Shown: positions 40,256 through 59,905, numbered from the stretch's first letter. The stretch: DNA of 64,000 nt from Antedon mediterranea (GCF_964355755.1 NC_092670.1:15375201-15439200); one strand, 5' to 3'. Program-made: numbers and translations. Notes: generated by a model from the sequence alone, not told the origin.

Positions 40256-43200
40256 TCAGGTGGAACCATTCCTTTTACTTGAACATACGTATGACAGCAT
40301 CATTTTAATTTCTTCCCGTACAACTAGGTCGTGTGGATGAACGTCAGACCCCGTATGGTGACAATTTGTCATATCCCAAACATCTATTATCACAATATTT
40401 GGAACATCTTTCATAACGTCACGCATGATAGCATCCAATTTCATTACATACCAATCACTAAAATTAATTGTAGACGTTGGAGTGTAAGCGAAAGACCGCG
40501 TATTAGCAGATTTAATTATCACTAACGTTTCTGGACTGCGTTGATAAAGTCTAGTCAACGCGTTTCGAACGCATATGAGACGCGATTGATAATCGTCCAA
40601 CGTTACTCCTGTAAAATGTGCCCACATATTTAAAACAACCACTGTGTTTTTATCCGCTCTTAGTTTATCTATTTCATTGAACTCGTATTGTATATTCTTA
40701 ACTAGCATCCAAGTGTTTCGAATTGGAAGACCATGATGGAAAAACCTAGACGTAAAATTGTTCTTCGGATCCTCAGCCGTCAACGGACCGACTTTATAAG
40801 TAGATTTATGTTCATAGAACGTGACGTTATTTAACGTCGGTAAATACTCCAATAGGAAGTTATACCATTGACGTAATGTTGAGTCTCCGTAAAAATATAA
40901 ACGTTTGTTACGCAGACAAGACTGAACAGCTGCAGTACTTAAGTATCTGGCGTTACATACGTTAGAATGCCACACGTCTCTATAATAAAATCCCGAAGTC
41001 ATGCTGGATGTAGGCCTACTACCTCCTGCAGACGATAAGCCTGGATTTCTCGCAGAAGGCCTAGGCCTACAGAACGGTAAATGTGCTTTGCATAGATGGT
41101 AGCCTTCCAGTTGTTCTGAAAATTAACAATAAGATTTAATCCGTAAGTTTTTACGTAGTCATAACGTTTTAACGGGATAACGTTTGGGTTCAAAACTGTG
41201 TACCCGGAGCAACCATTTAAATGAGATATTTTGTTAATCAAGTACAAAAATGCCTTTTTATTTGGCACATGGATTGTTATTGGTCCTTCATGGTTCAACT
41301 TTATAAATGAAGTAGGCCTATTGGCTGCAACATTAGCCTTACATTAATATGTTAGTACGCGTTGTCTAGTGATCATTAAATCATAATCATCAAATCAGAT
41401 CTTTGTTAGTGTTGTTTTGATATCTTCTTTGTAAAATAATGTTATTGTTTGAAGCTTTAACGTTATTGTATCATAACTTTGTCAAAGATGCCGCTGATAT
41501 AAAAGCATGTCAATATATCAATGAACTTTGTTAATAGTTTGCCTACCATTTGATTGCACTTTAATAGCCAATGGCTGAAGACGTCTTAAAACTCTTCGGA
41601 TGTACTTTCTGGAAGTTTAATAATCACATGACAATGTCATTCAGATGCATTGAGTATGTAACGCTAAGTATAATGCATTTAATATTTGATTGAAATACAC
41701 CCTATTGATATTCAACCTATTTACCCTCCAAACCCTAAACTGACTTGGCCTCTACAGTACCAGCTTCAAGTGGTAGCGGAAAGGAGTTTTTTGTTTTCCA
41801 GCTCGATTTTGGAACCGTTTTGAGTTAGGCCTACCTTATTATTGTTATTCTTGCTGAATTCAAAATAGTAGGTGCTATTTGGATTTCATGGCCGAAACTC
41901 CGCACTAAACATGGTCATCCAAAAGTATCATTCGGTAATATTACACTGTTCATCTTATCCCATTACACCAATATTACAAAATGTATAGTTACATATAGTT
42001 ATAATATTTACATTTGTTAGTTTTTGTTTGTTTTGGGGGGTTTTTTTTGGTAATGTTTCATGAAAAACTTACGTTTGAAATGCATCTTCCTCTCCCGGTA
42101 ACAGTAGTTCATTTGTCCGTTTCTGTGTCAGTGCTGGGTTACCGTGGTGCTCTATCCAAGACGAACACGGTAGATTCTTTGGTTTTTCACAGAACCATGG
42201 CTGCCCGGATAATTCATCGGTAAAATTGCACAATAGTCGAGATGAATCCAAATGTATATGACATTTTGTGATTTTTATCTTCTTTCCGGATTGAAACTTA
42301 CCCTCGTAAACCATCCGATATGGATTCTCGTGGTATATTCTTTTTACAATTCTTATAACTTCACTTGGAATCATTAGCGTCACTTCAATATTCACTAATC
42401 CTGTCCATGGTAACGTAAAATACGCGGAATACGTTCCATTCCCATGATCAATAATGTCTCCATTATTTGAAGAACTAGCATTTAAATTATCATTGTATAT
42501 CCTGGCCCTGAAATAATCTCCACCATTTTGTTTAGGCCGGTTCCAGTCGTCACGTGCCTGGATAAAAACGTGTATTTTATCACATGTTACGTATTTATTT
42601 TTCAAGTCAATGATCTCATATTTACTTTTTCTTGGACTTGTTATTTGGGAAGTTAGAAGGGTTGTTGTATCAATATTGTAATTATCGTTGTAGGCTGGTA
42701 AATCACGACCATATGTGACGAGGGAAGGAGGCGACTCGGGGCCCGTGGGGTACACATGACGTATAACGAATGGTGGATGTGTTGACTTCCTATCTGAATG
42801 TTTGTATTTCTCGTTGCTTGCGGATCTTGAAGAAAAACTGTTCTGATAAAATCCATTCTGTAATTAACAATAATAATTTGTAAGTATTTAAATGTGGTTT
42901 TAAAATACATCACAGATACATAACCTACATTATAACAAAAACAGAAAAAGTTAAATAAAATATAATAATTTAATTAATAATCTAATAATTAAAAGGCAAA
43001 AGAAAAATGTTAATTGTTCCGTTAATATAGGTAGAGAAATAACCATATCCTAATTTAGTAGTATCAAAATACTTTTATGTTCTATGCCATGGAGTAAAAT
43101 TAAAAAAATCGAAACCGGTATATTTATCAATGATTCTCTGTCCTCGGATGTTTATATAGTTACTAAGCACAACGTAACGTTTGATCACTCATTGAGGAAT

Positions 43201-44945: not shown

Positions 44946-45792
44946 ATGTACAGTATTTAATGTGTATATGTGAACATTGAATCGCTTATGGTTATTTATT
45001 CAATTTGCTTTTAGCAAAAAATAACACTTTAGATGAGAGGTTCCGCGCAAATGCACCATGTCGTACAGTCACGGCGCGGAAAGCGTTGGATGTATAGTGT
45101 TGAATTTATATTAGTGAAATGTATAGACCTAATGTTATCAACTTCGTTTGATTCATCATGTGAGCTAATGTGAGAACCTTTTCCGGTACTTGAATGTTAG
45201 AGATAACCTTTTTTCTTCTTTTATAGGATGCAAGCTTGATTGTTTTAGTTGGGTTTTTTTTTGGTCTTTGTATTTTGCTTTTGAATATGGACAATTAAAA
45301 AAATAAAATTTAAATAAAAAAGTAGCTGATGATTTTCAGTGGAGAAAACACAAATTATTAGACAGTGCCTAAAATGCATTAATATGAAGGATTTCCAATT
45401 GTGAATAGGTCATTAAATTCGACCTTAATCGACACTCCCAAACCCGAATGCACTGAAAACAGGAACCTCATGCCTAACCCACCAAAATGATTTCCTTTTC
45501 TTCGCGAGACGATAAAATTAACATAATCGTATACTGTACTGCGAATCATCTGTCTTATTTCAATCATGAATAAAATACCAATGACCATCAATAAGTAAAC
45601 GTGTCGTTATCGGTAAACTTGCGGTCCATAACGTTGCGTTCCGTCTAATTAGTGCGTGAACCAAAACAAAGCGTTAGCTTATTACCGCAGAAACGAATAA
45701 TCATATATCTTTCTACGTTTCAGAATGACGTCAACAAATTGTAATAACAAAACCCAACTTGGATTTTTGGAAGGAAAACGATAACGTCCAAT

Positions 45793-45831
45793 CATTACGC
45801 GGACCAGGCTACTTTAGCGTTACGTTTGGCA
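45793..45831 (+). repeat. Left terminal inverted repeat of the 11.4-kb element
   Basis: 39 bp. Inverse partner of 57119-57158, with two mismatches and one 1-bp gap. It contains the shared core GGACCAGGCTAC. Confidence 0.9.
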
Positions 45832-45850
45832 TCCACTGAATCAGTGGATG
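45830..45850. repeat. 21-bp palindrome just inside the left end
   Basis: CATCCACTGA, one base, then TCAGTGGATG: a perfect 10-bp stem abutting the left terminal repeat. No equivalent is seen at the right end, so it could mark one end for transposase binding or act as a hairpin. That role is inferred. Confidence 0.8.
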
Positions 45851-46241
45851 ACCTATCCCCTCAACATGTCAATTGTGGTATAAGTTGACAGGAATAATAC
45901 TCTGTGGTGTAATAAAAATGCCAGCGTGTTTATTTTAGATTGCAAGTGTTAAGAATAACTTGCTGTCAATTTTCAACTTCCTCTTACCAATGACCAATAG
46001 CAAACAGGCACCGCTTGTCAATTTGGTCCTCACTGACTGGGTATTAACCAATCAATGTACTATTAGATAGGTCACTGATTTTATACAATAGTTCGCGGGA
46101 AATCTGATTTCCTTATACAATACTGTACAGGAATTTAATACTGTAGTGGTTGTTTATATCCAAATATTTCTCAATGCTGCTCTATGCAAAGCAAATCAAT
46201 TTAACTAGAACTACAGACACATTAAATAAATACTGTTAAAC

Positions 46242-49200
46242 ATGGACAATAGTGTTACTAGGGAATTGGGATGGCCGTGTGATATTCCATTCATTAAATT
46301 TAATGGGAAAGTATATCTTTCACAAAATGACTCATTAAAATATCTTCGTATGTATGTCAGGCAGCGTTTTAAAGGCTGGAAGCCCTTTGATCGATTTTGG
46401 GAACAAAATGGATTGATAGTCAATCATGAGGTACTTCCGAACAGTGCTATAAATGTATCACGAAAGCATATTAGTGTTTCATGTTTTATTCACCTGTTGT
46501 TGGGTGGTGGACATCTTGTAGACAATGTACAGCAGCAACAAACATATATAATTGATACAAATGAACACAATTTAAATTTGATAACTCTACGCGATTTTAT
46601 AAGAGATAAATGCGTAGACTCGGTCATGAACGACCATCTACTTGATAATATAAACGACGAGCCCGTGGTTGAAAATAAAAGACCTGGAAGAAAATCTACA
46701 ACAGAACTATTAGAAAGAATTAATCGCAAAAGGGTTAGGCCAGATATACCAGGAGTTCAAATATCCCCCGCCATTCCTCTTGATGGATCGAGGCGGCAGG
46801 CCTCAAAGCGATTTTCAAATCGAATGGAAGCACATCGAAAATCAATAAAAGATCTTTCTCGGAAGATTCATTGTGGAGGAAAATCTGACTTGCTGCATGC
46901 GTTCGCATGGTAGGTAGAAATAAACAGTTCCGATAAAAATAATTAACAAATTCTTATTCAATATATCTACGTAAATGTGTGAAGTTAGACTAAATATGTC
47001 TTATTTACAGTATATCAGTAGGCCTAATATAGAATATTCGTATAAAAATATCAAAATATCCCGTAACATTTATACATATTGCAAGTGTACATATATCATA
47101 TGGCCATTTTCACAACCATACCTAGGTTAAATCATAATAAAAATTGTTGCCAATATAATTACAACTTTTAGGGACCTAACACGTAAAAGTAAAAACGACG
47201 GAGAAGCTGCAGGCGAATGGAATGGGGCAATATCGAAAGAAGATCTGGTGACTATCCTTACGGAAGCAAAGTCCCCCGATGATGAAGAAACGTCCGTGTT
47301 TGTAGAATTGATTCGGTATGTTATTTATAAATACCTATGTAGGCCTACCACAAAAATATAAGGTCCATCATCATAATATTATTATGTTGTATTCCACTTT
47401 GGGACATTCAGATCTCAGATATATCTGAGTTTTCTAGATTTAGAAAACGCAGATATATCTGATATCTGAATTTTCTAGATCTCAGTTTTTTATATATACA
47501 CCACACTTTATTTTATACATTTTATCATTTACAGAAAGGAAGCCGCTAATCATTTTTATATTAACGAGGAGGACCTGCTCTTTCTGGAAGACACTGCAAA
47601 CGTTGTAGGTGTACTTACATGGTTAAGAAAGCGACTTCCTGGATTTTTAGCATCTGAAAAAAGGGTGAGACTACTGAAGAAGAAGCAAAAGAGTGAATTT
47701 GAGAGAATTCTGCAGCCAAAAGCTATCCCAGGAGGAATAAAAATCGACATAGATGCGTTGCATGATACATTGATGCACGTTTACCATTACGTAAAAGGAA
47801 AGGAATGGTGGCGACTATATGGAGATGGTCGAATAATGGGAAAGCGGCAAACAACTGTACTTGGAATAACCAACATCAACAATGATCAAGCCCTATTAGG
47901 CAAAGGTTTCCATAGTCCTCATGACTTTTGGAGAATTGCTGTATTTTACTTTGGAGACGATCGTGCCAACTTAGAAGCAAATCTACGTTGTGATAATTCG
48001 CCATATTTAAATGACTGGGTTTGTAGAATGCAGCGAGATGGACATTACATATTTTTATCCTCAGATGCTAAATTTCAAGACGCAGTACTTGGAGGGAACA
48101 TTGGTCCCCTAACAACTGATGGTTTCAACGTATATATTGAAACATCGAAAATTGAGAATAAAGATTATGATGCGACAACAGGCTTACGGTCAACTATCAG
48201 AAAGTCAATCCAAAGAGAACATGATGAGCGCCTTCTAGAAATACCGATAGATCACTTTGGTGTATGTATTGACCATGGAATAACCAGAATCGTTGAGCAT
48301 CAGCTTCGACTTCTCGTTCAGGAAATTCACTCGTAAGTATATTAAGTTATGTGTAGCTAAAAAAAATGAAATACGGTACTTTATTAAAAAATGATACCCT
48401 TGTTATTATTTTCATTTGCAGTTTAATTTACCTCTTAACTTCCACATGTTTTTTTGTTTCAGTATTACTTCATTAATACCTGGAAATGAAGGTGTTGCAC
48501 AGCGAAAAGTTAGACTGCAACATCTCGTTAGCAACATTAAAGCGCGGGGCGTAAACAGGAATAAGGATGGTGGATTCCATATCCAATTTGAAAATGACCA
48601 ACTGAAGCAAATTTCATTAAATAAACCATCTGCTCAGTTGATACTATACCCAGCCACCACAGAATTCTTTCAATATGACACGTCTGTTCCTTTCCCAGAT
48701 ATTTTCGATAATGTTCTGCCTGATACCCCATACCAAAAGGAGTTGCCAATTGATTTGCAGTCTAAACTAAATTTGCCATCTCCAATTATCACTGCCAAAT
48801 ACCTACAGCAGCAGATTTTTTACCATCTAGCATGCATGTATAAATTGCAAAGAGATGAACCGAGAAAATTAAAACCTGGTAAAGACCAAGGAAGTCTATC
48901 AGCTGACGATTACATCTGGGGGCACACGGATGATTCTATTACAAAATATACAAAACATGCCGACATGTTCCATCGCCTTATGGTATTTAAATACGGCAAT
49001 GTCTTCACGGGATATGAGATGAAATTTATAGATGTCGTACCGCAGCTTCTTCAATCAACCCCATTCCATTCAGTGATGCGGTTGACAACTGAACAAGGAG
49101 AACGTTCACATTACATGGATATGTGCCGTTTTTATCAACATTCTACTAGAGGAGGCGGTATCCATAAACCCGATCCTATCCTAAAGTTGTTTGAATGGCA

Positions 49201-50429
49201 ATGGCGGATGATTCACCATCGAGTTAGAGATTGTCCTGTGGAAGTTCAACATCGATTTCATAATTTTATTGACAATAAAAATAGAGTTGAAGAACAACCA
49301 GATTTGCATGCCAATGAAGAATCAGATATCGATGTTCTCGATGCCGATGGCGAACCCCCAAATGTCCGCTACGGCAATGAAGAACAGCCAGATCATAACG
49401 AAGACATTACAGTAAATCCACCTATTGATGTCCTTGAAGGGAAATCAGTGGTTGTTGTGGGACGCCTATACAAACAGAAAGAATTAATAAAAACTATTGT
49501 TGCTAAACATGGCGGTAGGGTTTGGACGAAAGTTCTCCCAAAGATGGGTATTCCCTTACCACACTTTTTAGTAATAACAACACAAGTGGAATGTGACAGA
49601 GAACCAAAACGAATTGCTATGCCACTTGCCGAATGTTTCAAAAGACGTGTGGATATTATAGGAGATACATTATTAAAAGATTTGGAAAATAATTCTTTCG
49701 CTGGAGATATTGATAATTATAGGCTCAATATTTCTAAATTAGAAAATGCACCATCGTATACAATCCAGGCAATACGACAAGATGCGAGTCTCCAGCAGTA
49801 CAACAGGTTAGTATGCCATACATGAGCTAAATAAATAATTACTACAATAGTTTAATTATGCCATACGTGTAAAGATCAAACAAATACTTGTAAAAAAGCA
49901 TCATATAACATGAAAAAACGCGTTAATCTTTTTCAGCAAATTACCGAGTGCATACACCTACCTTAAACGAAAGGAACGACAAGACAGAAAACCTCTTCAA
50001 GAAGTGAATCACGGACAAACTGCCCATGGGAAGAGAAAAAAGAAAATGAAGTCTGCCCCAAAAAGACGAAAATCCGGTTTCAACTTATTCACTCAATTGC
50101 ATATGCCTCAGGTATTAAGATACGTCTTAAGTAAAATACCCTTAGATAAAAAGCATTATAATATGCTTATTACGTACTTCTTCTTTTCACTGCCTCTACC
50201 CCTCAAACTGTCCAAAAATGAGAGCTCAGCTATAATTAACATTGTGATGGATGTCTTTCCTTAGGTAATGCGTGAATATAAGGAGTTGTCATTGACCGGT
50301 AAAAATGTAATTATTCATGACTTATGGACGCAATGTAGTGATGAACAACATACCGAATGGAATGCTCGTGCACTTCGATTAGTTCAGCCAGAAGTAGCAG
50401 AAAATGTACACAATGTCCAGGGAGAATAA
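46242..50429 (+). CDS. DDE-type transposase-like protein with BRCT and HMG-box-like domains
   Basis: Six exons: 46242-46909, 47172-47315, 47535-48332, 48463-49806, 49937-50111, 50265-50429; 3294 bp, 1097 residues, phases consistent. The N-terminal 270 residues have a basic KRPGRKSTTELLERINRKR patch. The central core has the look of an RNase-H-fold transposase: LYGDGR with Asp368, FLSSDAKFQD with Asp448, and after a roughly 300-residue helical insertion TTEQGERSHY with Glu747 or Glu750. A large insertion before the last acid is known in hAT, RAG/Transib and KDZ transposases. Residues about 858-945 form a BRCT domain (LEGKSVVVVGRL, AKHGGRVW, HFLVITT, DIIGDTLLKDL). The tail (SGFNLFTQ to WNARALRLV) resembles an HMG box after a lysine-rich linker. 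It is the first gene inside the left end and probably drives transposition. The core assignment rests on pattern reading, not on a search. Confidence 0.8.
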
Positions 50430-51184
50430 GGTTTACATAATTAGTACCAGATAGGCTAATCACTTGAATTTAAGTTTTAAATCGCATGATACTATACTAA
50501 AAATCATCTTATCTTTCATTATTAATTCTCAAGCAGGATCTCAAAGATAATATTCAATTAAATTTGAACTGTCATAATATACCAACTTAAGCAGAAGGTT
50601 CAAATCTCAGTTAACGGGTTTTTCTCATTCATACAGGCTTGCTTATTTTGTTTACAATTTCTTCTGTGCCTGTTAATTATTATAATAATAATTATTATAT
50701 ACATCTATATTATTATATTACAATTAATAAGAAAATAAACAAATTACAGCGAACCACTATTTATATTACAGTCGTATATACACAATTTCTTTGTGTTGTA
50801 TTATACACATTTCATGATTTATTGCCTAGTATACCATAGTGGATTGATCGAATAAAGTTGAACATCACAGGCATAATTGTTTAGGACTGAAAAATACAGG
50901 CTTACACTCCTTATACTGTATTAAGTTGAATCTGGTCAAATAAGACCACAAAAAACATTACTACAATTTATTAACATTTCTTTACTGCAAAAACGTGGGC
51001 AGTGATACGGTACGTTATATTTTTCTTTATTGTAGTTTATTTTAATCCCTTGTTTATAATCGACTCTTCCACAAGTCAAATATTTGAGGTTAAGTTTTCC
51101 CACTGCTCAAAGAAATAGTTACACTACTACCAGATAGAATAGAACAGTATAACTATACTAATAAGCCTCAGAAACAACTTTAAT
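50430..51184. other. Spacer between transposase-like and Tudor-like genes
   Basis: AT-rich, no exon recognised. It probably holds the terminator of the first gene (AATAAA-type words near 50730 and 50850) and the promoter of the second. Confidence 0.4.
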
Positions 51185-52558
51185 ATGGATTATTCTTATG
51201 TTAATGGAGAGCATGTTGAAGTGTTTGATGAAGAGTGTGGTATATGGAGATCGGCTAAGGTTATTAATATTAGCACGGATACCATAAGTGAACCTGGGAT
51301 TTGTATTCATTATATTGGGTGGCAGCCAAAGCATAACACACTCATTTCAATTAAGAAACATATTCGCCCAGCAACACCATTCGTTACGGGAAAGAGAAAG
51401 CGAATTCCAAAAACGCACAGTGTTTCAAATTACTTTAAGACTGTGCCCGAAAATCTTGTTATTGAAGACCCTGTAAAATTTATGTACGATGGGAAACGGT
51501 TTCAGGGATTTGTCGTCGAAAATGACCCTTTTCTGAAAACAATGAAGGTTTCTTACGAGAACGGATATAAAGAAAAAGACATAACATATGCTGATTTAGT
51601 GGAGTCTAACAATGATGATGACACAAGTAGACCTATTCGTATGATGACAACTAATGATGAGACAACATCACCCCTGCCCACAAAAAGAAAACTGACCAAA
51701 CCAAAAAACACGAACCGAAATAAATCGGAACAAAGGATTGAGAGTCCATTCTTAGACCTACCTAGTAGTAGGCCTACTACGAACGAAGTCCCTATTATTC
51801 GAAGTTGCTCTAATAAATATGGACAAGAAATAACACAATGTGTTGTAGAAGACGAGATCGTCTTTGTGGGTTGCTTTCTTGTTACAGAGGAAAGCGATGT
51901 ATATAGGTTTGTCACCCACTTATATGTAGATGATAAAGGAACATTTAAGAGCATCGGATTTAAAGTACGAACACTTGGCACCCGAAAGTTCTTTCAAATT
52001 GGAACATATGACAATATTCTTGAAATGCCAAAGAAAATTAAGTTAAACTTGAACGCTTATTGGAGGAAAAGACAGCGAAGTACTCAAATTGCTTGTGAAG
52101 AGAGAATACTTCAGAAGATGTCAGGATTGACGATTCAGCCCAGATACATACAGAGAAGTGTTGCCCTGCGAAAATGCATCAGGCAGCAACTGAAACGAGG
52201 TTTCGGTGGTAGAAGGCGCCAAATTAAAGTTAATATACCATATGACCAAGGTACTGATGCACATTTATTTGGTTTGGATGCAAGCAACTCATTTCATGAG
52301 GAGTATACCCCAGAAAGCTTTGCGCAGCTGGACGACTTACTTGGGATTGGGTGGGATTATATGATACTAAATAATTCATCTAGGTATGCTTTTGTGTCGC
52401 GAATGATTGTCAGACTTATTCTTGAAGAACAAAGTGTAGAAGTTTTAGCACACATTCGCAATACCTCTATACATGAATGGTGCATGGACTACAGAAAACA
52501 TACTATGGATGAACTTATACATGCGAATAAAACATCAAACATTGATACGGAATCTTGA
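51185..52558 (+). CDS. Double Tudor-like protein of the 11.4-kb element
   Basis: Single-exon gene, 457 residues. Residues about 7-62 read as a Tudor or chromo-barrel module: GEHVEVFDEECGIWRSAKV then ICIHYIGWQPKHN and ending HIRPA. A second module at about 90-138 reads DPVKFMYDGKRFQGFVV then MKVSYENGYKEKDI. A charged, low-complexity linker (about 140-200) follows, with KKRKLTKPK-like basic patches. The C-terminal half (about 205-440) contains VGCFLVTEE, FFQIGTYDN and a highly basic KRGFGGRRRQIKV stretch; I do not recognise it. Tudor-type barrels bind methylated lysine or arginine on histones or other proteins, so a chromatin-targeting role for the transposon is a reasonable inference. The gene lies between the transposase-like and kinase genes on the same strand. 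Confidence 0.72.
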   Translation: MDYSYVNGEHVEVFDEECGIWRSAKVINISTDTISEPGICIHYIGWQPKHNTLISIKKHIRPATPFVTGKRKRIPKTHSVSNYFKTVPENLVIEDPVKFMYDGKRFQGFVVENDPFLKTMKVSYENGYKEKDITYADLVESNNDDDTSRPIRMMTTNDETTSPLPTKRKLTKPKNTNRNKSEQRIESPFLDLPSSRPTTNEVPIIRSCSNKYGQEITQCVVEDEIVFVGCFLVTEESDVYRFVTHLYVDDKGTFKSIGFKVRTLGTRKFFQIGTYDNILEMPKKIKLNLNAYWRKRQRSTQIACEERILQKMSGLTIQPRYIQRSVALRKCIRQQLKRGFGGRRRQIKVNIPYDQGTDAHLFGLDASNSFHEEYTPESFAQLDDLLGIGWDYMILNNSSRYAFVSRMIVRLILEEQSVEVLAHIRNTSIHEWCMDYRKHTMDELIHANKTSNIDTES

Positions 52559-53396
52559 TTAAATCTAAACATAACGTGTTATGCAGTTATTTGCGATATT
52601 ACAACCTTAGTTTACGAGGTTTATTACACGATGATTATCTGTACTGTTAGTAAATAAATTCGTTTAAAATGTACTCAGTATACATTATACTTTTCTTATA
52701 CTGTATATATTCTATGGTAATATTTCATAAGTAGACCAAAGTAATTAATTGGTAGTGATATGCCTATTAGTTTAGTTATTCATATTTTCTATATTGTAGG
52801 CCTAGGCCTATATTTACGAATTTTACATATTGTATTCTCAGTTTTAACAACATTATATAGTTTAGTTTCAGCTGTGTTTAGAATTATAAAACCCTAACTA
52901 AAACACTGTATTCTCTTTTTGAATATTTGAACTTGGAATAAAAAATTGTTGTAACAAGAAAATGTATTTTGATGTCTCTTTGGTGTTATGATATCAGTTA
53001 CATTTTTGTAAGCTTATTGGAATTCGTAAATACATGTCATTAGATAATATCAGTGAAGGCATAAAACCTCTAATAATAAATGAGACCTTCTGTATGTATG
53101 GCTTCATTGTAATAAAATACCATAGATATTGAACTATTTATTACCCTTAAAACGTTACGTCAACGCATTGCGTCTCCAATGCAGCTTGGTATGAGATATT
53201 GATATTTGCTGAATAGTGTATTTGGTATGCTAAAGATGGTCAAAAAAATGTGGTTTGACCCCTGTAACCCATACAAGTAGTAAGTACGGTATAGGACTAT
53301 ACTCATTGAATGGAATTCATTAGTTCCAAATACAATAGCCTCCCTGTACACACAGAAGTTCTCTCATCATTTCTATACTGTTGTGCATCATTGAAG
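52559..53396. other. Spacer between Tudor-like and kinase genes
   Basis: AT-rich with AATAAA words near 52650 and 52940. One GGCCTAGGCCTA word at 52799. No exon seen. Confidence 0.4.
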
Positions 53397-54970
53397 ATGA
53401 AACGTTCACCAAAAAAGATCAGCAAAAAAAAAAAGGTTCATAATGAAAATGCTAAATGGTAATTATTTCACTATCTGTTAAAAAATCTTTATAGGCCTAA
53501 TCGATGTATTTCTATTGGCATATTTATTAAGCTTTTTACAAATTCAAAAATAATTTAAGTACACTTAAAGATGCTAATGCCAAGTTGTTTTTTTTCATTT
53601 AAGGATTAATTACCTCTTCCAGCAAAAAACAGACATGGCCGTAAACGTGAAAGAAGCCTGCACTTTATTACGTGGTTACTGTCCCTACCTGACTCACAAT
53701 GGGGCAGGAAGAGCAATCTCAACAGTTTTTAAAGGAAAATTGAAACGGTCAAAATCGGGAAGGAGAGCCGACAAAACTAGGGGAGAATATAAATACATTG
53801 GCATATGCAAGCGGGAACATCACAGTCAATCACACCATTCAGTTCAGACGAAAAATGACCAGCACGTTATTTCATCGGCCAAACACAACGAAATGAGAAA
53901 AGGTACAGCTCACGAAAATAACGAAAGGCAAACAAAGAAAGATGGGCCAGTCGATCAAGTTAAAATTTTATCTAAGAAAAATGCAAACTTAATTAATGAA
54001 AACTCTAAACTTAAAATGGCTTTGAAGAACGCAAAAGAGGTCAATCATAAGGGGTTGCCTGCCAGCATGGTGATACATAATAATATGATAAAAACCTCTT
54101 CACATACAGTTGGGAGGGGTACGTTTGGCGAGTGCCAAACAGCGTTGTACCATGGAACAAGAGTGGTCATTAAATCATTCAAAAACCCAGAACAACTAAA
54201 TGATGAGAAGCTAAAGAAAACAATAATCAAGGAGGCAAACATTATTCTCAATTTAAAAGCGCACATTAATCTTCCACGATTGGTAGGAATTGCAATAGAA
54301 GAAGCACCATATCAGTTAATTACTCCTCTGTATTCAATGAAAGATGGTTCCTTTAATTTAAATGAGATATTTAAGAGGAAGGATATGTTGAGCAGATTTA
54401 ACTGGGAGAACATACTGCGACAGATTATAGATGCGATTAAGACTATCCACAACTCAGGATATGTCCATAATGATATAAAAAGTAAGAATCTGTTATATAC
54501 GTAATTTTTAAAATTAAGCCGCTAATTGTTTCATTATCATATACATTAAATTCCATTATACCATACACAATTCAGTGATTATTTTACAGTTTTTTCTCAT
54601 GTTCCCAACTGTCTTTTCTCTTACAGGTAATAACGTGGTGCTTCATGATATTGATGGTAAAATTACACCTGTAATAATAGATTATGGCAAGGCGTTTCGG
54701 ACCGGACGGAGTACTCCTTTAAAGTTGGCGTCGGAGGAGAAGATTAGATGGAAGAAATGCTTTCCATGGACTGCACCAGAAGTTATTTCTGGTGTCGAAG
54801 CACCATCGGAGCACAGCGATATTTACGCATTTGGATACATGTGCAGCCGCATATTTACCAAAACGAACAACAGAAGAATACGCGAAACTGGCGAGATATG
54901 CATGCGGCCGGCACCTTGCAGAGCTAGCTTGGCCACCGCCTTTTATGTACTAACGTTAGATCATGAATAA
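53397..54970 (+). CDS. Protein kinase carried by the 11.4-kb element
   Basis: Three exons: 53397-53458, 53604-54481, 54627-54970; 1284 bp, 427 residues. It starts with a lysine-rich peptide (KRSPKKISKKKK). A short region with basic patches follows, then a heptad-like coiled coil at about 125-160 (LSKKNANLINENSKLKMAL), then a kinase domain. The glycine loop is VGRGTFGEC (190-198) and the ATP-binding lysine is in VVIK (Lys211). The catalytic loop is HNDIKSNN (309-316), with Asp311 kept but Asn in place of the usual Arg. The metal-binding motif is DYG (Asp332), followed by WTAPEV and SDIYAFG. All key catalytic residues are there, so it is probably active; the missing HRD arginine suggests no control by activation-loop phosphorylation. 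The C-terminal lobe after the F helix is short. It resembles eukaryotic Ser/Thr or Tyr-like kinases; the group was not determined. Confidence 0.83.
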
Positions 54971-55319
54971 TTAGAATACATTTTTCAGAATGGATTTTTA
55001 AAAAAGGGTAGCAGTAAATTGTAGCTTTGTTTTCTTGTATTTATTATTAGTTTATGTATATTTTATTTTCTTTTTTGTATTCGTGTTTAATGTTCTATCT
55101 TGGGGTGGGTCAGACAAAGTCTTTCTGCGTTATTATTATGACTTTCCCCCACATGATTAATTCATTGCATTTATTATCCTGTCATTCATGTTATTATATT
55201 GTGGAATTAAAATTAAATTGGAATTGAAATTATATTTGTTTGCAATGTATTTTGTTCTATTTTACATTGTATAAAATTGTTATAAAACGATGACAACATT
55301 AAAATACAATAACAGGAAA

Positions 55320-56450
55320 AACAGTGGCAGGATACAAAAACAGTTTCTGGGTACAAAACATTTGTAAAAAAAAATGTGTTGTACAAAAACAGTGGCTGGG
55401 TACAAAAACAGTGGCAGGGTACAAAAACACTGGCTGGGTACACAAACAGTGGCAGGGTACACAAACAGTGACATGGTACAAAAACGGTAGCAGGGTACAA
55501 AACCGGTGGCAGGGTACAAAAACGATGGCAGTTGAGTAAATAAACAGTGACAGGGTACAAAAACGATGGCAGGGACGGTGGCAGGGTACAAAAACGGTGG
55601 CAGGGTACCAAAACGGTGGCAGCTGGGTACAAAAACGATGGCAAGGTACAAAAACGATGGCAGGGTACAAAAACGGTGGCAGGGTACAAAAACGGTGGCA
55701 GGGTACCAAAACGGTGGCAGCTGGGTACAAAAACGATGGCAAGGTACAAAAACGATGGCAGGGTACAAAAACGGTGGCAGGGTACAAAAACGGTGGCAGG
55801 GTACAAAAACGGCGGCAGGGTACAAAAACGATGGCAGCTGGGTACCAAAACAGTGGCAGGGTACAAAAACGGTGTCAGGGTACAAAAGCGATGGCAGCTG
55901 GGTACAAAAACAGTGGCAGGGTACAAAAACAGTGGCAGGGTACAAAAACGGTGGCAGGCTATAAAAACAGTGGCAGGGTACAAAAACAATGGCAGGGTAC
56001 AAAAACAGTGGCAGGGTACAAAAACGATGGCAGCTGGGTACAAAAACAGGGGCATGGTACAAAAACGATGGCAGCTGGGTAAAAGACAGTGGCAGGGTAC
56101 AAAAACAGAGGCATGGTACAAAAACGATGGCAGCTGGGTACAAAAAACAGTGGCAGAGAACAAAAACGGTGGCAGGGTACAAAAACGGTGGCATGGTACA
56201 TAAACGGTGGCATGGTACAAAAACGGTGGCAGGGTACAAAAACAGAGACAGGGTATGACAAGCAGTGGTCTAGGGTACAAAAACCTGTGTTTGTATACAA
56301 AGTGTCTGGGAAAAAAGACGTTAGCATGGGTACAAAAACGACGGATGGCAGGGATACAAAAAACAGTGGCAGGGTACACAAAATTGTGTTGTACTAAAAC
56401 AGTGGCAGGGTAAAAAACGTAGCATACACATTTTACGAAAACAGTAGCAG
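55320..56450. repeat. 19-22-bp minisatellite in the right arm of the 11.4-kb element
   Basis: More than 50 units of GTGGCAGGGTACAAAAACG, with variants (AGT for GGT, ATGGCAGCTGGGTAC units of 22 bp). Blocks of several units are themselves repeated (compare 55585-55680 with 55670-55770). It lies between the kinase gene and the right end. Long frames on both strands through the array are artefacts. Confidence 0.95.
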
Positions 56451-57118
56451 GGTAACATCAGCAGAGCTAAACAAATGAAGAAGGGTCAGAACATGTGACT
56501 CTGGCAGATAACAGATAACATTTTTTCAAGAGTGATAAGAAAAAAGGAAACATATTAATATATTCAATGATTTGTTAGCCTAAATATATCTTTCATTTTT
56601 AATTTATAATTATTTACATGATGATAAAACTTTTTAATTTGTATTAATTTAAATGTTTATTTTGGGGTTCTTTTATAAGTCAATCATTTTTTTTTCCATT
56701 AAAACTTAAAAATTGGCTATTTGTAGTTTATTGTATTCATCTTTATGGTTTATTTTACATCATTTATATCTCAATTTATATTGCTATATTGTTATCTTTG
56801 ATGAAATATTAATATTATGTACTGTAGTAGGCTTATACACATTTTTTAAATTCTCAACAAAGTCTCAAACCACATAAAACCTAAAAGTTGAAACTGAATA
56901 TTTAATGGCCCTTGAGAATTCTAGGTAGCCTGCGCAAAGGTCATCAAGGCCAAACTTAAGAGGATGACTCAAGCCCTTCCATGCGAATCATCTCAGGTTA
57001 GACCAACCTCCAGTGGGCAGGACTTGTAGTTGAAACTTCTGGCTCAAATGACACTCCAGGGTAATAAAATCGCAATAACTTATAAAGCACTGACAGTAAT
57101 TGCTTGTCAAAACCAAAT
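56451..57118. other. Right arm of the 11.4-kb element, no gene
   Basis: AT-rich unique-looking sequence between the minisatellite and the right inverted repeat. No exon or subterminal repeat recognised. Confidence 0.4.
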
Positions 57119-57158
57119 TGCCTAACCGTAACGCTAACGTAGCCTGGTCCGCGTAATG
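57119..57158 (-). repeat. Right terminal inverted repeat of the 11.4-kb element
   Basis: 40 bp, inverse partner of 45793-45831; outermost bases GGTCCGCGTAATG. Confidence 0.9.
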
Positions 57159-58366
57159 GTCTGATCGATAGCTAAAGACTCGTCGGACTTAAACAATTAT
57201 TTTGGACTTTCAATTAATTATACGGTTTGTATGTGTCCCTAAACGGATTACAGAAAAAGTTTATGATATGCCTAAATGTGTAGAATGCTTACAATAATAA
57301 CATGGCTATAAGATGAGAGTATAACAATGGAATACGTAAATTCAAACAAAAAGAAAAACAGCCATTTTTGTAACACAAACCTCTTGGATTGAAAAGCCTG
57401 TTTGTTAGAAGTGTTCGATATAACCAAATGGGATACCTCTTAACTCTCCATTCCCATCTCCTGTTTTTCACATACTGATCCCTGCATTTTTCACTCTCCT
57501 ATCTAAAATTATTTATATTTTATCTCATCATTAAACATCAGCTGTCCTCTAAGTGATTTGCGTTCTGTTTGACGATAAAGTCTCCTCCTGTTTTATATAA
57601 ACAGCTATAGTTTTACCTCATTTACTGCTGGTATCTGAGAGGACTTGTGCTTTTCTGTATTGTTTCTACGATTTGCCCTTCTAAATATATACACCGTGCT
57701 GCAACAAAATATATAACTTACCATACAGACTACTGAAGGTTATATCCCAAGTGAAACAAATAATGATCTCACACTATTGATCTAATGCGTAAATAGTTTG
57801 CACGACTCGAATCACTATAATAGCAATACGCATGTGCAAAGAATTGAGGAATTCTCGCCAATGAGAATTACTGTCTATTCACAGTACTTCCTGGTATTTG
57901 ATAGGCTACAATGTAGAGAGAAGAATTATCAAAGAAAATGCATTTAAACTTCACAAACTTTCCAATATTATACCTCATCCCGACGTCTTCGTTTGTATGA
58001 AATATTAACTTTTTAAATGAAAATGTATTTGTATTCCCCTATTAAATGTATAATTACTCTCAGCAACAAGCAAGTATATACAATTATGGAGAATTCTGCT
58101 CTCAGCCAGTGAAAATGGCACTTAGACGCTTCCGTAGAAATAACATAATTAAATGCTGGTTTTTTTTTTATTATAGAAAGACGATATAGTGTAAGTAGAC
58201 TATAAAAAATGTTATGAGTGCACACGATATAGATGAGCCAACTTAGCCGACTGAGCTTGTGTAATACGAACAAAAGATCTTGTGATATAATAATATTTAA
58301 ACAAGGCCAACAGCCATAAGTCGCGTGCTCTCAGGAAAAATTGAACTTTCAAAAAGTAATGTACTT
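57159..58366. other. Intergenic, no gene seen
   Basis: AT-rich; short frames on the minus strand (57289-57471, 58013-58273) show no recognisable features. Confidence 0.4.
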
Positions 58367-58590
58367 TAAAACTTTTCTGTACATCAAAACAGTTCAAAAA
58401 GTACAGAAAAACGCAAAGTGATACCCGACAGACCGATCGACCGACCGACAGACCGACCGACATAGTTAAAACTTGTCTGTACATCAAAACAGTTCAAAAA
58501 GTACAGAAAAGCGATAAAACGCATAGTGATACCGGACCGACAGAGAGACCGACAGACAGACCGACAGACCGACCGACCGACATAGTTAAC
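58367..58590. repeat. Tandem duplication with (GACC/GACA)n tails
   Basis: Two units, about 58367-58466 and 58467-58588. Each has CTGTACATCAAAACAGTTC and AAAAAGTACAGAAAA followed by a run of ACCGACAGACCGACCGAC and then CATAGTTAA. The two runs differ in length. Confidence 0.85.
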
Positions 58591-59905
58591 TATAGAGTCG
58601 CGTCCACGCGACTAAAAACGGAAACGAAAAACAAGAAATAGAAAAACAAAACAAAAATTTGAAAAAAATAGACCAATAAAAATATATAAACACATCAGGC
58701 ACATAACATTAATTCTAAAACGCCCGTTGATATACTGAAATTTAATTAATTAATTTGAAACGATAAAGATGAGGAAATCTGTGAGAATTAGAATAATTAT
58801 AAACTAGCTTTGTAGCGCCCTCTAGAAAGCCATAAATGTTGTTACGTAGTATCGATCGGAGTGCCATTGTGCCACAATACGTTCATTATTTCTACATACT
58901 CTATAGATCATTTTTGTCGTGATTAAACAATGTAACATAACATTAGTTTATGTATGTATCAATAAGAAAAAAAAACACATAACTTATTGTTTATACTGAA
59001 TCAGCCAATTAAAAAGCTCCATTACTTTGAACCAATCAGAAGACTGTAATATTCTTATCATCCAGTTAAAAGACCCGTACAATTAGAAGTTGGTTTATAC
59101 ATGGAGCGAACTGTAGTTAGCAATCGTGTGTCAGCCTAATGTTTCTACTTTGTACTATCAGTGGGACTTTTTAGTATTTTGTAGGGTTTATCTGTGGAGT
59201 CTTTTATCTCTGGTATATCCTAACTCCAGATCGATGTATCTATTCCGCCTGATTACCATCAACACCATTTCTTTGTTAATTATATTCCACGCGTACACAA
59301 TGGAACTGACTAATGCTTCAATAATAACGTTGTGGTGGAATACTCATTTTTAGTCTATCGTGTTTAGCTATTTAGCTTCAAATGTATACACACCTTTTGT
59401 GCTTTTCATATTTTATAACTGCAAACACATGTTGGATTTTTACAGCAGTGCTGTCATATTTTTAACAGCTGTAGTATTCGTCAATTTTTATGTTATTTAT
59501 GCATGTTTGTTAATAGCTGGGCCAACGAATCATGTATCATTAGTTGTTTTGATGGAGTCACCACGCCTTATTTAGCTACCTGTAGCCCTACCTCATGATG
59601 GAGACCTGTCGGCCTAAAAATGCTCTTCGATCATCTAGATTGTTAGGTTCGTCGAGTTTTTAATTTATTGAAATATGTCTTGTTGATTTTTAGCTTTGTG
59701 TCATCGCATCATCACAGTAAACCGTTTTACTATTTTATTCAAAGAGAATGTGTGTCCAGCCGTATGTAACCTGGAGTGACAATTCTGAATAGGTCTAAGA
59801 TGAAGATTAGGGCCTAGAAATCGAGTTTGTTATGCTTGTGAAATGACGTAGGCCTAACGTACATCATTGTTATCGTAGGAATTGTTACCAAACGTATCTT
59901 TCAAG
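58591..59905. other. Upstream region of the last gene
   Basis: No coding exon recognised; the frames at 59126-59575 are hydrophobic but match nothing I know. Probably contains the promoter and 5' UTR of the gene at 59906. Confidence 0.35.

Follow-up and report, generated by a model that had tools for sequence, protein, structure and literature searches.

An 11.4-kb mobile element of Antedon mediterranea: a recently active, probably DDE-type transposon of apparently undescribed lineage

The 11.4-kb stretch at 45793..57158 of the analysed window (64,000 nt of Antedon mediterranea DNA, C1:15375201-15439200) is a mobile DNA transposon, with insertion demonstrated against empty sites. It appears to be of DDE type and to have been active recently, and its lineage is apparently undescribed. 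The evidence as a whole is best explained by an element with CA..TG ends, which very probably encodes a putative DDE transposase accompanied by Tudor-type and kinase accessory genes.

The whole element comprises 11,366 bp (plus strand; flanks CCAAT|..|GTCTG) and its ends agree with those of 22 other insertions. Inverted ends of about 39 bp, some 11.4 kb apart, had been proposed in the first-pass annotation; this pair indeed ranks first among the inverted pairs in 45000-58000 (35 nt, 94 %, spacing 11,296 nt), while the repeat proper comprises a homologous portion of 32 bp with one mismatch. Inverted-pair search and boundary alignment place the 5' arm (CATTACGCGGACCAGGCTACTTTAGCGTTACG) at 45793..45824 on the plus strand and the 3' arm, which carries the one mismatch relative to the 5' arm, at 57127..57158 on the minus strand. 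The arms enclose three intact genes, all on one strand as originally described (the plus strand), coding for a transposase-like protein of 1097 aa, a Tudor-like protein of 457 aa and a two-exon kinase, followed by a minisatellite of 19-bp units (55317..56418), a similar array being present inside the non-autonomous copies. Outside the element, two minus-strand frames at 40256-41002 and 42069-42755 resemble NXPE-family host proteins by eye.

In the genome (354 Mb, 18 contigs), a search with the outermost 210 bp on the 5' side retrieved 22 further places, mostly with 97–99 % identity, where the 3' end accompanies the 5' end, typically at a distance of 4–10.6 kb. Both ends are present in 20 copies including that of the window, which begin with CATTAC and finish with GTAATG amid unrelated flanks; the multiple copies with shared ends that a mobile element should have are hence at hand. 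The window harbours the only full-length copy of its family in the genome, and only this copy has kept the full transposase. The segment 47061..54446 is absent from all eight non-autonomous derivatives examined. Since the deletion junction (47061|54446) is common to them, the eight descend from one founder with kinase exon 2 downstream, as in the window. They share 97.5–99.8 % identity among themselves; across the first 1.3 kb their identity to the window copy is ~95 %, with 99.8 % in the outer 100 bp. A separate deletion derivative lacking the 5' end (L015:2060-3162; C5:13793000-13797500) joins window position 52352 to 57026, and its Tudor gene shows 97.5 % DNA identity and two stops. Two copies (L008 and L016) are located at or near one spot (T|TACAGTGG) of a single host repeat family, related pieces of which occur just outside the window element (58299-58690); a target preference is possible.

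For the empty-site analysis, joined flanks served as queries, and uninterrupted relatives of host-repeat targets were retrieved and aligned. Clear empty paralogous sites were obtained for ten copies, all residing in host repeats, and the insertions were exact, such that the empty sites called for by the first-pass annotation do exist. The target duplication amounts to 0 bp at C3:24816, C1:10432 and C9:13947, 1 bp at C6:14564 (T) and C9:14349 (G), 2 bp at C8:3038 (GT), C3:22103 (GT), C3:37346 (TA) and C5:21846 (AT, one substitution), and 3 bp at C2:23370 (AAT), with no loss of target bases seen at any of these ten insertions. The empty-site relative of C7:7449 is too diverged to be scored. Moreover, 1–3 terminal bases are shared in 17 of 21 junction pairs, compared to 9.2 expected from random re-pairing of the flanks (17 reached in 0 of 5000 shuffles). 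Taken together, empty sites and junction statistics indicate that insertion is precise and that the length of the duplication is not fixed. Because the duplication is short and varies between copies, it becomes visible only against empty sites and had previously gone unrecognised; absence of a duplication holds true for the flanks of the window copy (CCAAT|GTCTG), but not for its family. A 31-bp direct repeat at C9:23881 was considered as a long duplication, but is more probably a tandem repeat that predates the insertion: C6:14564, inserted into the same host repeat, yields 1 bp versus three empty relatives.

The transposase gene (46242..50429, plus strand, 1097 aa) consists of six exons (46242-46909, 47172-47315, 47535-48332, 48463-49806, 49937-50111 and 50265-50429) with GT..AG borders, forming a single open frame. 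Its core retrieved no Pfam match at E up to 10 and none in NCBIfam or among PDB sequences. In an alignment of four transposase lineages, the invariant columns include GD(G/A)..MG.R, D..F, CxxH and TE.GE.SHY, corresponding to the residue order D..D..CxxH..E. On the plus strand of the window, the candidate catalytic residues are D368 (GDGRIMGKR, 47824..47826), D448 (SSDAKF, 48064..48066) and E747 (TTEQGERSHY, 49091..49093; E750 as alternative), with the CxxH motif (C515 and H518, 48265-48276) encoded 3' of the D448 codon; all are invariant in the four lineages, which together with the mobility of the element suggests that the 1097-aa protein is a DDE-type transposase. Structure models predicted from single sequences, one for transposase exon 3 and one for the Tudor-like gene product, had a pLDDT of 35, too low for use. 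The BRCT and HMG-like tails noted initially are weak in the window copy and clear in relatives: the BRCT-like domain (49427..49700, plus strand) scores E 0.2 here and E 8e-9 (BRCT_2) in homologue L013, and the HMG-box-like tail (50058..50381, plus strand), interrupted by the last intron, E 0.12 here and E 4e-7 (HMG_box_2, Pfam) in the transposase of one family member. Purifying selection on the transposase is evident from exon 3, which differs by 28/11/59 % at codon positions 1/2/3 between the window element and a second element on C7.

The adjacent double Tudor/Agenet-like gene (51185..52558, plus strand) represents an intact frame of one exon coding for 457 aa, with a conserved C-terminal domain and weak matches to Tudor/Agenet. 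The protein kinase gene (53635..54970, plus strand) codes for 396 aa with an N-terminal domain of its own and matches Pkinase at E 2e-26 (Pfam). The VIK lysine, the alpha-C glutamate, HNDIKSNN and DYG are all present, the latter two motifs being regained because exons 53635-54481 and 54627-54970 were joined. By eye, the N-terminal domain (window 53635-53820; C7: RMRPGSRKGRSETCYYYV) is reminiscent of a winged helix of RFX type, which Pfam does not bear out.

Protein searches of the genome revealed a second TIR-bounded locus carrying all three genes at C7:20726153-20738966. Its 32-bp TIRs (CATTAGGCGCAGGAGCCCCGGATAGCGTTACG in the 3' arm) differ from those of the window element yet can be aligned with them, inner GCGTTACG being common to both. 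Identities to the window proteins amount to 60 % for the transposase, 41 % for the Tudor-like protein and 31 % for the kinase, which shares the N-terminal domain and lies on the opposite strand to the other two genes. The C7-type 5' end is matched at ~82 % by at least 39 other places (545 candidates), a large non-autonomous family (L092-L107) with TIRs nearly identical to those of the C7 element and with internal minisatellites. In the four copies that were read through (3.7–8.0 kb), the 32-bp TIRs are perfect and searches for transposase or Tudor sequences gave no match. By eye, a 536-bp inverted repeat with arms 94–95 % alike (C7:20740103-20741910) adjoins the C7 element, and similar motifs recur near other insertions.

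More distant relatives are located at C5:14299553-14304829 and C3:27334766-27340198, where a transposase homologue (24–25 % identity) is encoded within one uninterrupted frame each, of 1759 and 1811 codons. It has the BRCT (E 8e-9) and HMG-like tails and, in addition, a further region at the N-terminus. This region (L013:554-1570, L014:767-1800; NGLLCKxHHHGASCSxDCLLE...) recalls a cysteine peptidase by eye and has no Pfam match. Each frame is directly preceded by an equally oriented gene, the last exon of which corresponds to the Tudor-like protein in its C-terminal domain (hhalign E 0.004, low probability; likewise in an alignment) and follows exons that appear Tudor-like by eye. A genome search with this last exon retrieved both loci, a decayed copy and then the Tudor genes of the window and C7 as well as a site that has a transposase fragment 3 kb away. 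The matches to the Tudor genes and to the latter site are weak (E 0.03–0.9), but their positions lend independent support to a pairing of Tudor-type gene and transposase. A kinase gene was not found at the C5 and C3 loci, both of which are surrounded by short inverted repeats as candidate ends. The genome contains at least 10 further decayed transposase loci, and no relative of the element was found in the viral contigs scanned.

That two unrelated MITE insertions happen to flank three host genes is exceedingly improbable. Two copies of one MITE in opposite orientation can indeed yield an inverted pair around genes, but the ends are found paired 4–11 kb apart at some 20 places with an interior in common, and the empty sites prove their joint insertion, which refutes this explanation; the terminal repeats thus belong to the element. 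Likewise, a reading of the cassette as single-copy host genes was ruled out, because it recurs between other TIRs: the TIR-bounded element on C7 holds all three genes. Hardly more attractive is a mobile transposase gene with Tudor-like and kinase genes trapped once from the host in the window copy. Both genes are missing from most copies and the genome is rich in generic kinases, as such trapping would have it; against it, the C7 TIRs enclose homologues of both genes, including the N-terminal domain of the kinase, the common deletion junction shows that the founder of the derivatives had the kinase exon downstream, and a Tudor-type gene also resides beside the distant transposases. The originally claimed three-gene mobile set therefore stands for the window and C7 elements, where it recurs, but does not extend to the two most distant loci, where the kinase is missing.

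More weight is due to the affiliation of the element. In favour of a lineage not previously reported, neither Pfam and NCBIfam nor the PDB sequences contain it, and in the open-licence literature no transposase of such kind with BRCT, HMG, Tudor or kinase was found described. Novelty at the superfamily level, judged without Repbase, is probable. It is conceivable, if somewhat doubtful, that the element represents a diverged member of a Repbase superfamily not modelled by Pfam (e.g., Academ, Novosib, Sola, Zator, Dada or hAT-like), which acquired two accessory genes. Such an origin would agree with the D..D..CxxH..E order, which resembles that of the C/DxxH group (PMC9587614, PMC3706591), with the CA..TG ends also found in CMCT and KDZ elements (PMC12730594), and with the accessory genes occurring in fungal transposons of several superfamilies. 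However, the core has no Pfam or NCBIfam match even at loose thresholds, and neither BRCT plus HMG tails nor 0–3 bp duplications are described for these superfamilies in the papers found. We lean towards a new superfamily. Its hallmarks would be a transposase of the D..D..CxxH..E order bearing BRCT and HMG tails, a conserved Tudor-type partner (joined by a kinase in one branch) and a flexible 0–3 bp duplication.

As to the mechanism, the DDE-type transposase, with a presumed RNase H fold and D..D..CxxH..E residues, would bind the 32-bp ends, excise them and insert them into the target with a short stagger, cut-and-paste being assumed. The 0–3 bp range could result from a flexible stagger, with target strands joined 0–3 nt apart, or alternatively from a short fixed stagger with gaps trimmed in repair before sealing. 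The BRCT domain may bring in host break-repair factors and could plausibly connect the element with end-joining by the host, whereas DNA bending may be the task of the HMG tail. A probable role of the Tudor/Agenet-type protein is to guide the complex to certain chromatin or to protect it there. The kinase, an accessory regulator in one branch, probably acts on the transposase or on host factors by modifying them. Internally deleted copies would be mobilised in trans.

The target duplication of DDE transposases usually has a length fixed for the family, which the geometry of the transpososome dictates. A new superfamily as proposed, if true, would imply that strand transfer or repair departs from the fixed stagger that is the rule in other DDE elements, and with a 0–3 bp range beside empty sites that are unchanged, the origin of this rule becomes testable. 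Furthermore, an element with a chromatin reader and a kinase of its own would reveal ways in which transposons direct their integration or escape silencing, an idea paralleling that proposed for TET-carrying fungal elements. One copy with intact genes plus a second, diverged element make such tests practical.

Among known systems, the C/DxxH group (hAT, P, MuDR, Kolobok, Dada) has the same D..D..CxxH..E order (PMC9587614, PMC3706591), and its motif is found in the element as C515xxH518, placed between the second D and E and invariant in the four lineages. The element differs from the members of this group by its BRCT and HMG tails, the variable 0–3 bp duplication and the absence of a Pfam match, the transposase matching none of the hAT, P and MuDR models at E up to 10. 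Kolobok uses a TTAA target duplication (PMC9587614), which is absent at the ten scored insertions, and Dada inserts into small RNA genes without TIRs (PMC3706591), whereas the present element has clear TIRs and unrelated targets. CMCT elements have 5'-CA..TG-3' termini and duplications of 2–5 bp (PMC12730594); CA..TG ends and short duplications are shared by the element, but 0 and 1 bp occur in addition. By eye, the CMCT signature C(2)C..H(3-4)H is not among the invariant columns, the only such pair being C515xxH518. KDZ elements (Kyakuja, Dileera, Zisupton) are large, with long transposases, accessory genes and in some cases CA..TG ends (PMC12730594, PMC12477816), and their duplications usually comprise 7–8 bp, or 4–8 bp in Cryptococcus (PMC12810828), in contrast to 0–3 bp and no KDZ Pfam match in case of the element. 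Spy and other Harbinger-related (PHIS) elements generate duplications of 0, 2 or 3 bp (PMC12730594); there the length is a property of the family, whereas it varies here within one family, and there is no sequence match. As regards the gene set, the closest precedent is found in rust fungi, where the transposase of IS3EU is accompanied by alpha-kinase and TET/JBP genes (PMC12730594). Transposase, kinase and a chromatin-linked enzyme thus occur together in IS3EU as well, which differs in having an alpha-kinase rather than a Pkinase-family enzyme, a TET dioxygenase instead of a Tudor protein, and 6-bp duplications. With regard to class II TIR elements in general, the copies share exact boundaries and are inserted into intact targets, and their target duplication is not of fixed length. 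A fixed-length duplication is usual, not obligatory, for TIR DNA transposons. The element is of this known kind, while its lineage and its duplication behaviour look new.
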